Shown in pieces: positions 12,761 to 32,460 of a DNA stretch of 64,000 bases (position 1 is the stretch's first letter; every line of letters begins with the position of its first letter). The translations under genes and the position numbers were made by a program. A model generated the notes under the pieces. That model was not told the DNA's origin. It saw only the letters and a program-made list of their open reading frames with translations, and made no database searches. Source of the stretch: Longispora albida DSM 44784 (GTDB taxonomy: Bacteria; Actinomycetota; Actinomycetes; Mycobacteriales; Micromonosporaceae); assembly GCF_000379825.1 (NCBI RefSeq), contig NZ_KB903835.1, positions 124,599 through 188,598 on the forward strand. The letters run 5' to 3'.

Positions 12761-12793
12761 GACTTGAGATTCCGGCGAAGCGAAGCGTCACTC
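12761..12793 (+). promoter_or_regulatory. 33-bp intergenic element, copy 1
   Basis: GACTTGA at 12761-12767, then CCGGCGAAGCGA, in a frame of 33 bases shared with five other gaps. The last six bases (TCACTC) diverge from the TTGCAT seen in the best copies. It lies 29 bases before the ATG of the winged-helix gene. Confidence 0.5.
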
Positions 12794-12822
12794 AACCCCA
12801 CCCCAACAGGAGGCACCACAGC

Positions 12823-13527
12823 ATGAGCACCAGCACGCCCATCGCCCGGCTCCTCGTCAGCCTCGACGAGAGGGGCCCGATCGACGCCAAGACCCTCTCC
12901 GAGGTCGCCGACGTCCCTTACTCCACCACCGTCCGCAAGCTCCGCGAGTGGGTCGCCGACGGCAAGGTGACCAAGCACGATCGCGGGACCCAGGCCGCGC
13001 ACTTCACGCTCAACGCCATCACCGAGCCCGGCGCGGTGGAGAAGCTAAGCACCGACCAGCGCGAGGACGAACAGCCCAGCAACACGAACGAGGACGCCCT
13101 CGCCGCCGCGCAACCCGACGACGCGAACGTCGTTTGCCCGGAGCCGGAGCCGGAGCCGGAGCCGGAGCCGGAGCCGGAGCCGGAGCCGGAGCCGGAGCCG
13201 GAGCCGGCACTCGCACCCGCACCCGCACCCGCACCCGCCGAGGATGCCGCGTCCGCAGAGGCGGAGGCGGTGACCGACAAGTCCGACCGCTTGCGCCACG
13301 GGGTACTGCAGAAGGCGACCTTGGAGGTGCTGCGGGCCAGCCCCGACACAGTGTTCGGGGTGACGGACGCGGCGCGGAGGGTGTCGAAACTGCTGATCGA
13401 ACGCGGACAGCGGCCGGCGGGCTGGAAGGCCAGCACCGGCGCGGTCGGCAACAACCTGCACGCGTTCACCGAGACCGGCGAGGTCGTGCTCGTCGAGCCG
13501 AAGCCCGCCAAGTTCAAAGCCGCCTGA
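12823..13527 (+). CDS. Winged-helix protein with an (Glu-Pro)11 linker
   Basis: A 234-residue protein. Residues 1-70 form a winged helix (KTLSEVADVPYSTTVRKLREW, then a wing with GKVTK), as in DNA-binding regulators. A stretch of 11 Glu-Pro repeats and an Ala-Pro stretch separate it from a second helical domain (ATLEVLRASPDTVFGVTDAARRVS) that looks like another winged helix. The rigid linker would hold the two domains apart. ATG 12823 has CAGGAGG upstream. It is the clearest candidate regulator of this gene block. Confidence 0.7.
   Translation: MSTSTPIARLLVSLDERGPIDAKTLSEVADVPYSTTVRKLREWVADGKVTKHDRGTQAAHFTLNAITEPGAVEKLSTDQREDEQPSNTNEDALAAAQPDDANVVCPEPEPEPEPEPEPEPEPEPEPEPALAPAPAPAPAEDAASAEAEAVTDKSDRLRHGVLQKATLEVLRASPDTVFGVTDAARRVSKLLIERGQRPAGWKASTGAVGNNLHAFTETGEVVLVEPKPAKFKAA
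13141..13206 (+). repeat. Hexanucleotide repeat (GAGCCG)11
   Basis: Eleven exact GAGCCG units in frame encode Glu-Pro repeats, and a shorter GCACCC run follows. Slippage would change the linker length in steps of two residues without breaking the frame. Confidence 0.9.
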
Positions 13528-13556
13528 CTGCGGCACATCCCCTCATGTCATAGCCA

Positions 13557-13598
13557 GGAGCGGGCGCGTCGTGTTCTTCATGCCCGCGTGCCCGCTCC
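13557..13598 (+). terminator. Hairpin after the winged-helix gene
   Basis: GGAGCGGGC (13557-13565) pairs with GCCCGCTCC (13590-13598) across a 24-base loop, followed by CTTCTTCC. Confidence 0.45.
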
Positions 13599-13622
13599 GG
13601 CTTCTTCCGATGGAGCCATCCC

Positions 13623-14339
13623 ATGTCTCAACTTCTGACTGCCCTGGGTGGCGGCGCTCTCGGCGCTGCCACCGCACTCGCCCTGACCATCCCCGACATG
13701 TGGCGCCAGCGCCGCAGGCTTCGCGCCGCGCACAAGGAAGCCACCCATGACCCGCTCACCGGCGTCGCCAACCGCCTCGGTCTCGCCGAGGCGTTCGAGG
13801 AGGCGCAATCCGACGGCACCCCCTCGGTCGTGGTCCTCGACATCGACCGCTTCGGGACGATCAACAAGGTCCTCGGGCACGAGGCCGGCGACAAGCTCCT
13901 CGCCCAGGTCGCAGTACGGCTTGCGGCCCTGGGCCTGCCGGTTGTGAGCGTCGCGCGTCTCGGTGGGGACGAGTTCGTCCTGCTCGTCGACGCCCACATT
14001 AAGCAGCTTCCCGGCGGCGACCCCCTCGCGGGGCCGGTGTGGATCCGCACCAATGACGCCGACGGTGTCGCGGTCACGGCCGCACGCGACGCCTGGCGGG
14101 CGATCGCCGAATGGCCGTTCGCGCTCGACGACGGCCGCGAGGTGCCGATCACCGCGTCGTTCGGCGTCGCGGTCGCCCGCCCCGGCGACACCCTGCGCCA
14201 GCTCCTGCGCCGCGCCGATCTGGCGATGCTCGCCGCGAAGAACACCGGCGCGAGCGTGCGGCTGGCCCCGCCCACCGCCGAACCGGTCCTGGAGCGGCCC
14301 GCCGTCCGCGACCGCGACGCCCGCCACCAGCAGTCCTGA
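13623..14339 (+). CDS. GGDEF-domain protein (probable diguanylate cyclase)
   Basis: A 238-residue protein with a membrane-anchor-like segment (about residues 8-24) and a GGDEF domain from about residue 45 to 210. The active-site GGDEF (114-118) is intact, and the metal-binding DIDRFGTINK and DPLTGVANR segments are present. It should therefore make cyclic di-GMP from two GTP. No I-site Arg-x-x-Asp is seen before the active site, so product inhibition may be lacking, and there is no EAL domain. The start at ATG 13623 follows TGGAG. Carriage on a mobile element with a pilus locus suggests that it affects surface behaviour. Confidence 0.88.
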   Translation: MSQLLTALGGGALGAATALALTIPDMWRQRRRLRAAHKEATHDPLTGVANRLGLAEAFEEAQSDGTPSVVVLDIDRFGTINKVLGHEAGDKLLAQVAVRLAALGLPVVSVARLGGDEFVLLVDAHIKQLPGGDPLAGPVWIRTNDADGVAVTAARDAWRAIAEWPFALDDGREVPITASFGVAVARPGDTLRQLLRRADLAMLAAKNTGASVRLAPPTAEPVLERPAVRDRDARHQQS

Positions 14340-14402
14340 CTACCGGGACGCGGCATCCCGTCGCGATCCGGCCCGCATCACCAGTTCTGTGAAGGAGTAT
14401 CT

Positions 14403-30928: not shown

Positions 30929-30952
30929 CCGCGCAGACGAGGAGCAACCACC

Positions 30953-31297
30953 ATGACCGACGCAGACACCACCGCGCCCAGACCGCCTACCCCGTTCTCG
31001 CGCCTCGACGAGACGCTGCGCGACCTCGGCTTCCGCCCCTTCCCCGCCCGAGCCGAAGGCGTGCGCCTCTACGAGCACCCCGAGTTGGCGGTGCGCGTGC
31101 ACACCGACACGGGCGTGGACTTCGGCATCGCCCGCGTCAGCCACATCCGCGACGACGGCGTCACCGGCTGGCACATCACCTTCACCGGCGACACCCCGGA
31201 CCTCGTCCAGGTGACGATCGCGCTCGCGGCGGTCAACTGCGACCCCCAGGGCGTCATCGACGGCCTCACCGCCACCTACCTGGCCACATCCGACTAG
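30953..31297 (+). CDS. Small hypothetical protein, paralogue of the gene at 32536
   Basis: A 114-residue protein starting at ATG 30953 after GAGGAG. The pattern LRDLGFRPFP, YEHPELAVRV, then DPQGVIDGLTATY parallels LLDLDFEPEI, THPDHHVRAL and DPRSAVEGIACTY in the gene at 32536. Both follow a 33-bp element. No known family; a compact alpha/beta fold is likely. Confidence 0.65.
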   Translation: MTDADTTAPRPPTPFSRLDETLRDLGFRPFPARAEGVRLYEHPELAVRVHTDTGVDFGIARVSHIRDDGVTGWHITFTGDTPDLVQVTIALAAVNCDPQGVIDGLTATYLATSD

Positions 31298-31320
31298 CCG
31301 ACCACCATCCATCACCACGC

Positions 31321-31353
31321 CAGGGCCACCCCAGCACCACCGGGGTGGCCCTG
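31321..31353 (+). terminator. 12-bp hairpin before the gene at 31385
   Basis: CAGGGCCACCCC (31321-31332) pairs with GGGGTGGCCCTG (31342-31353), followed by TTCCCCTTT, so intrinsic termination is plausible. Confidence 0.6.
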
Positions 31354-31384
31354 TTCCCCTTTCGACAACCAGGAGCGACCTACC

Positions 31385-32404
31385 GTGCAGTTCTCCAAGA
31401 CCCCCTCGAGCCTGACGGAGCTGGCCCGCACGGCCGTGCTCGCCAAGGCCGACATGACCCAGGCCCACACCCGCCAGATCAACCGCGACCTGGCGACCTA
31501 CTACCTCGAATCCCGCTACGCCGGCACCGGCCTCGAACCCGGCACCGAGGCCATCGAGCACCTGCTCGGCCAGATCGGCGCCGCGTGGCAGCACGGCACC
31601 CCGTACCTGATCGCGCCCGCCATGACCGCAGTCGTCGCCGCCGCGGCCGAAGCCCTCGACCTCACCGGCGACACCCTCACCGGCCACACCGCACCCGGCG
31701 ACCTCGGCACCCTGTTCCTGCCCGAGCCGCTGTACGTGCGCCGCGTCGACGGCAGCGTGCACTCCCTCGCCGCGATCACCTGGGCGCGCGTGGGCATCGA
31801 CGGCAACGCCGTGTGGGCGATCTTCGGCTGGGCGGACCGCTTCGACGCTCGCGATCCGCAGAACACCAGACTCAAGGCCACGTTCCGCAAGCAGCCCAAG
31901 CGCCTGGCCCAGCTCGGCCGCTACATACTCGTCGACCACGCGCTCGTGCCGATCGGCACGCCGATCCGCGGACGCAGCGAACAACCACACCGCGACGGCA
32001 CCCACGAGTGGGAAGCAGCCCCCGACGGCCGGTTCGTCATCCAGGACGCAGGCTCCCGCCACGGCATCTGCCTGTCGGTGGCCTACGCCTTCTGGCGCAT
32101 CCAGGAACAACCCCTCGCCACGATCGCCCGCCCGCCCGCAGACAAGGCCACCCGCCGCCGCGCCGAACGCGACTCGATCACCCACGACACGCGGGTCGTG
32201 ATGCTGCGCCGCTCCAGCTCCACGACCACACACGGAGGGGAACCGAAGTGGCGCTACCAGGTGCGATTCGTCGTCAGAGGCCACTGGCGACGCCTCACCA
32301 ACCGCGACGGCGAGCCCTACCGCACCTGGGTCAACGCCCACATCAAAGGACCCGAGGACCGGCCCCTGCTGGGCGGCGAGAAAGTCAACATCCTCTCCCG
32401 CTGA
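31385..32404 (+). CDS. Hypothetical protein, paralogue of the gene at 29265
   Basis: A 339-residue protein, GTG 31385 with AGGAGCGA upstream. It shares with the gene at 29265 the central hydrophobic helix (IAPAMTAVVAAAA), LFLPEP, the Trp-Arg-Ile-Gln segment and the C-terminal RGHWRRLTN, VNAHIKGP and GGEKVN motifs. The N-terminal 60 residues differ most. Equal length and shared ends point to whole-gene duplication followed by divergence. Soluble; function unknown. Confidence 0.72.
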   Translation: MQFSKTPSSLTELARTAVLAKADMTQAHTRQINRDLATYYLESRYAGTGLEPGTEAIEHLLGQIGAAWQHGTPYLIAPAMTAVVAAAAEALDLTGDTLTGHTAPGDLGTLFLPEPLYVRRVDGSVHSLAAITWARVGIDGNAVWAIFGWADRFDARDPQNTRLKATFRKQPKRLAQLGRYILVDHALVPIGTPIRGRSEQPHRDGTHEWEAAPDGRFVIQDAGSRHGICLSVAYAFWRIQEQPLATIARPPADKATRRRAERDSITHDTRVVMLRRSSSTTTHGGEPKWRYQVRFVVRGHWRRLTNRDGEPYRTWVNAHIKGPEDRPLLGGEKVNILSR

Positions 32405-32428
32405 CCCGCCCCAGCGGCCAACGCCGCT

Positions 32429-32460
32429 GACTTGATCAACCCCCGGAGCAGAGGTTGCAT
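32429..32460 (+). promoter_or_regulatory. 33-bp intergenic element, copy 6 (spacer 19)
   Basis: GACTTGA, then a 19-base spacer with CCGGAGCAGA, then TTGCAT (32455-32460). It lies 75 bases before GTG 32536. Confidence 0.55.

Follow-up and report, generated by a model that had tools for sequence, protein, structure and literature searches.

HrdB/sigma-A promoters combine a TTGA(C) -35 element and a TANNNT -10 element with 17-18 bp spacing, while typical ECF promoters carry AAC in the -35 element. Two-block promoters have been reported for ECF sigma factors, among them the ECF41 promoter, given as TGTCACA-n16-CGTC (PMC3426412), and the SigR promoter, written as GGAAT-N18-19-GTT (PMC9205884). For actinomycete integrative elements, control of the AICE pSAM2 and of SCO3932 by KorSA/Pra has been described, with the consensus AC[TC]T[AG]TT[GC][TG][GT]ACG for SCO3932; in that system repSA, xis and int share one operon under Pra (PMC8584621). 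EGeRS1 and EGeRS2 are presented as regulatory sequences of pLS20-family plasmids, and EGeRS1 spans 400-600 bp with multiple inverted repeats (PMC8708921). Judged by comparative sequence evidence, the signal described here is a real, family-wide and promoter-like feature of mobile elements, of which the locus studied carries a diverged set; promoter action is the mechanism we infer.

The window, the whole 64,000-nucleotide stretch analysed (G000:C22:124599-188598), comes from a Longispora albida genome of 6.8 Mb in 26 contigs. The original prediction listed six intergenic copies of a GACTTGA-N20-TTGCAT element, and direct look-up in the window sequence located all six as claimed, each on the + strand by position (Table 1). 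The spacer is 20 at five sites and 19 at 32429, matching the prediction. The end block reads TTGCAT at 16063, 30859 and 32429, TTTCAT at 28658, and is degenerate at 12761 and 20278. The core CGGCGAAGTCGA, also proposed as shared, was exact at 20278 and 28658 but at no other of the six sites. This core alone is not diagnostic, because near matches (≤3 mismatches) are common throughout the window (460 versus 132 expected). Shuffling had been put forward as the control for the spaced motif, and exact GACTTGA-N18-22-TTGCAT occurred three times in the window and in none of 100 shuffles. Genome-wide there were 3 matches, all inside the window, and the reversed pattern gave 0.

Table 1. Sites and genes in the window and its surroundings (bits are scores of the family profile)
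Feature	Position	Strand	Remarks
Site 1	12761..12792	+	GACTTGA...AGCGTCACT; 62 bp 5' of winged-helix gene; 21.6 bits
Site 2	16063..16095	+	5' of 268-aa gene 16184-16990; 34.0 bits
Site 3	20278..20310	+	5' of 397-aa gene 20516-21709 (cluster c0); missed by profile
Site 4	28658..28690	+	5' of DUF6881 gene 28784-29077 and c1 paralogue 29262-30284; missed by profile
Site 5	30859..30891	+	5' of gene 30953-31297 and c1 paralogue 31385-32404; 9.5 bits
Site 6	32429..32460	+	spacer 19; 5' of gene 32536-32925; 23.2 bits
Seventh site	L012:9548	-	before the element's own integrase; 34.8 bits, top profile score
Conjugation genes	452..6793	+	TraG-type P-loop ATPase, coupling-protein-like ATPase, two Replic_Relax proteins
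Winged-helix-like gene	12823..13527	+	acidic/proline linker; BLASTP to L047 relative, 35% over 82 aa, E 6e-9
GGDEF diguanylate-cyclase-like gene	13623..14339	+	PF00990, E 7.7e-26
Tad pilus-like cluster	35623-45310	-	LysM protein, then TadE, T2SSF, T2SSE and SAF-domain genes
Possible Wadjet-like pair	53991-58501	+	weak JetC/LmuB and JetD/DUF2399 matches
Lamassu defence genes	59451-63940	-	PADLOC models: LmuA E 2.8e-173, LmuB 8.9e-170, LmuC 8.9e-36
Integrase-family copies elsewhere in genome	G000:C1:119444-120961; C22:39704-40867		one with an internal stop

In a leave-one-out search over the six sites, five ranked best in 144 kb on both strands and 12761 was outscored by one other place. This is no proof by itself, because the six sites had been chosen for their likeness. 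An independent family profile was built from 100 non-window sites, with the top score in 60 simulated regions (18.9 bits) as the chance level. Sites 16063, 32429 and 12761 exceeded this maximum. Site 30859 was borderline, with a score that chance alone can reach as a regional maximum, and neither 20278 nor 28658 appeared among the 26 places listed by the profile. Sites 28658 and 30859 gain support because each precedes a small ORF and then a c1 gene, as in relatives. The six window sites are confirmed as real, and 20278 is the weakest of them.

The genes behind the sites had been considered unrecognised, which does not hold throughout: 28784 encodes a DUF6881 protein. Gene 30953-31297 gave a weak SPDY/DUF317 match, under the cut-off. 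Paralogy behind two sites was borne out for the second genes (29262 and 31385, 46% identity) but not for 30953 and 32536, which are at most distantly alike (25%). Pfam gave no HTH match for the window copy of the winged-helix-like protein 12823. The c2-c5 gene order, winged-helix then GGDEF, is the same in relatives as in the window. Both the window element and many relatives (among L045-L064) have a GGDEF gene behind the winged-helix gene, and through this gene the element may alter host c-di-GMP.

A tyrosine integrase and an HTH_17 xis, the latter matching under the model's cut-off, lie just beyond the window at L012. The region thus holds both an integrase with xis and conjugation ATPases, and resembles an integrative and conjugative element (ICE). 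In DNA comparisons plasmids matched the GGDEF region and phages gave no match to the region; protein comparison with plasmid proteins returned distant relatives only. The seventh site falls within the final part of the xis ORF, and the integrase starts 89 bp further on. Integrase-family copies elsewhere in the genome, and defence and pilus-like genes in the window, were also noted (Table 1).

The family form of the signal was read from 20-kb stretches around 20 relatives of c1 (L045-L064); c1 gene 31385 has matches, some partial, in 38 of 300 family genomes. GACTTGA and AGCGT-type blocks recur in these stretches at fixed spacing, with the consensus GACTTGAYC-N-RAGCGTSGAT. The strict pattern GACTTGAN{16,17}AGCGTSNAT occurred in 86 of 300 Micromonosporaceae genomes, with 0 reversed matches among those listed. 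Class-wide it occurred in 6 of 296 genomes, one of the six in the family, with one reversed match. The strict signal is rare outside Micromonosporaceae. A serine recombinase perhaps lies downstream of one class-wide match (L136), and the four remaining non-family matches have the appearance of chance occurrences. Two matches to a stricter pattern in viral contigs, with no integrase seen there, were likewise taken as chance.

A search of relatives had been suggested for the exact pattern, which did no better there than its reversal (7 matches outside its own genome versus 6 reversed in 101 relatives), although the related GACTTGA/AGCGT form was found. TTGCAT is therefore not the family form, and GACTTGA-N20-TTGCAT is best described, from this comparison, as a diverged local form of the family signal. 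Chance, GC-rich coding bias or the spread of a small repeat is the least probable explanation of the sites. A looser pattern did give many coding-looking matches although its reversed control gave 1, and was left out of the counts. The reversed control thus underestimates chance, since codon bias is not kept, and gene context is the better control. Against chance, the strict sites cluster before element genes and show the scarcity outside the family noted above.

Gene context was searched on the downstream side of 98 distinct non-window sites, and the downstream translations of 86 could be labelled by expression matching: 30 integrase, 23 c9, 15 winged-helix, 6 c18, 4 a 133-aa gene, 4 HTH_36, 2 c1 and 2 XRE. 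The c9, c1 and winged-helix counts are inflated by the selection of 20 ICE stretches for c1. Among the remaining 12 sites, four precede integrases identified by eye (L068, L075, L081, L093) and two (L061 and L094) have ICE genes around or next to them. Six of the 98 have no clear element gene (L071, L073, L085, L101, L109, L128). Mobile-element genes, namely integrases, winged-helix/GGDEF operons, c9-c1 operons and HTH genes, are hence found behind about 92 of the 98 sites, and no conserved host gene was noticed downstream of any of them.

Within the 20 ICE stretches 48 places scored above 11 bits, at least one per stretch. A site precedes the c1 unit in 19 of the 20; the exception, L064, has c9 and then a broken region. 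The winged-helix gene carries a site in at least 14 of the 20 relatives, and window sites 12761, 28658 and 30859 occupy places equivalent to those in relatives. Upstream of integrases, 14 of 33 sites have a detectable xis-like ORF, which runs into the site in 12 of the 14. Seven of these overlaps are in one frame and five in another, in two groups of close relatives. DNA rather than protein is conserved, since the sites overlap the xis ORF in two frames. Among 80 named integrase loci in the matches listed, 35 carry an upstream match to the signal, each reported with no more than one mismatch. These comprise 30 of 35 loci from genera assigned to Micromonosporaceae versus 5 of 45 others (L226 and L243 are doubtful). 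Seven of eight integrase loci in family f32 read, by eye, TTGACA-N17/18-NTNAAT, and the TTGACA-N17/18 spacing is also seen in Frankia.

The signal measures 32 bases overall in 64 of 89 unique sites and 33 in the other 25, lengths that the pattern itself limits. Positions free of the pattern are also conserved in these 89 sites: YC follows GACTTGA, AG stands ahead of the last block and R ahead of AGCGT. The GCGTSNAT end block is partly imposed by the search pattern, and f32 variants lose its G. Conservation is confined to about 36 bp. Outside the site, information extends two bases on each side, and the rest of the flanking 60 bp shows no conserved position (58 non-redundant contexts). By eye, the TTGAYC-N17/18 arrangement ahead of the -10-like hexamer shows a sigma-A-like -35 and roughly 17 bp spacing. 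TANNNT was found in 0 of 58 contexts from the site to +30 and in 0 of 58 in the 40 bp downstream (5.7 expected). Upstream, it occurred in 0 of 58 at -40..-1 (4.2 expected) and 2 of 58 at -100..-60; its absence is partly background, because it is scarce upstream too.

We read the sites as putative promoters of a mobile-element regulon, served by a sigma factor that can work without TANNNT and is probably encoded on the host chromosome, and regard this as an evenly balanced call. An extended -35, rcGACTTGAyC, and a -10-like rAGCGTSGATc, kept at an almost constant distance (total length 32 or 33 bases), would be bound by RNA polymerase with this factor, the -35 being TTGA-like and the -10 a non-canonical GTSNAT. 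In the window element, transcription of the winged-helix/GGDEF operon, of the c1 units, of the integrase and of further small genes would start from this signal, whose diverged -10 would still work. What the sequences show is where the sites lie, how they are spaced, that they recur ahead of equivalent genes in relatives, that TANNNT is lacking and that no sigma gene is near. Failure of two of the six window sites against the family profile was counted against the promoter reading. A sigma-type promoter is favoured because the f32 -35 becomes a perfect TTGACA at constant spacing. Plain sigma-A is disfavoured because T sits at the second -10 position.

The main rivals to a sigma-type promoter are an operator and an activator-dependent sigma-A promoter. 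The latter would pair a good -35 with a poor -10 and depend on an activator, possibly the xis-like HTH protein. The TTGACA-N17/18 spacing in f32 and Frankia and the xis directly upstream of integrase sites speak for it, yet no conserved activator block lies beside the site and the second -10 position keeps T instead of A, and we consider it unlikely. An operator, at which a regulator encoded by the element (for example the winged-helix protein) would contact both blocks to repress or activate a promoter close by, appears somewhat unlikely. The winged-helix gene itself often carries a site, as counted above, and some sites show short dyads beside the -10 block or GACTT...AAGTC symmetry. This symmetry is not general among the 89 unique sites, however, and no canonical promoter is left nearby. 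Moreover, some sites stand ahead of lone genes or in small elements where the 20 kb examined contain no such winged-helix gene.

Sites at those lone genes and in small elements fit a host factor, although a host sigma factor with no host target found would be odd. No Sigma70_r2 gene is present from 37 to 262 kb of contig C22. In G240 and G250 a 75-kb radius around the sites likewise holds none; G316 has one at a distance of about 30 kb. No sigma gene was seen among the genes downstream of the 98 sites. The -35 block is GACTTGA and not the AAC type of ECF promoters. The winged-helix protein 12823 is at least a candidate regulon member because the winged-helix genes of relatives carry the site, and it is also a candidate for the reading factor.

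The original prediction had left promoter, operator and RNA motif side by side, for a regulon on the element, and was partly supported. A regulatory signal common to a regulon fits its presence before the same operons in relatives, far above the reversed pattern. An RNA motif fares poorly: the folding excess is small (mean z -0.7 to -1.25, RNA parameters) and Rfam gave no match on the window at gathering thresholds. The signal does precede several genes of the element, but the regulon is wider than one element. A promoter of the single-stranded or establishment type, working on DNA as it enters the recipient in the manner of Frpo of the F plasmid, would account for a signal that recurs ahead of several operons in a conjugative element, with six copies on one strand. 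It is highly unlikely given the small folding excess and the element's integrase site on the opposite strand.

Returning to the promoter reading, it is a possible, if tentative, extension that a host transcription factor in Micromonosporaceae, probably a sigma factor so far unrecognised, serves a near-wholly mobile regulon. ICEs, smaller integrative elements and lone HTH genes would then share one promoter class, with integrases and transfer regulators switchable together. The signal offers a sequence handle on the timing of integrase and regulator expression from integrative elements in a large family of antibiotic producers. If the reading is true, a promoter class shared across different elements, outside the sigma-A and ECF classes compared, would make a mobilome-wide switch directly testable. 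No description of the motif was found in the literature searched, a search outside which most subscription papers fall.

Set against the known systems, the signal resembles EGeRS in that a conjugative element has one regulatory sequence in front of several of its operons (PMC8708921). It differs from EGeRS1 in size, at about 32 bp against 400-600 bp with multiple inverted repeats, and in occurring in many elements and also before integrases. With the ECF promoters it shares two blocks, a similar spacing and perhaps a CGT/GT-type -10, a block partly imposed by the search pattern, whereas its GACTTGA -35 is of neither the ECF41 nor the SigR kind and no cognate sigma gene lies beside the sites. 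The TTGA(C) -35 and 17-18 bp spacing are shared with HrdB/sigma-A promoters, but the TANNNT -10 is not. Like KorSA/Pra, it points to element-borne control of actinomycete integrase genes; the signal differs from the SCO3932 consensus, however, and int has its own signal here.
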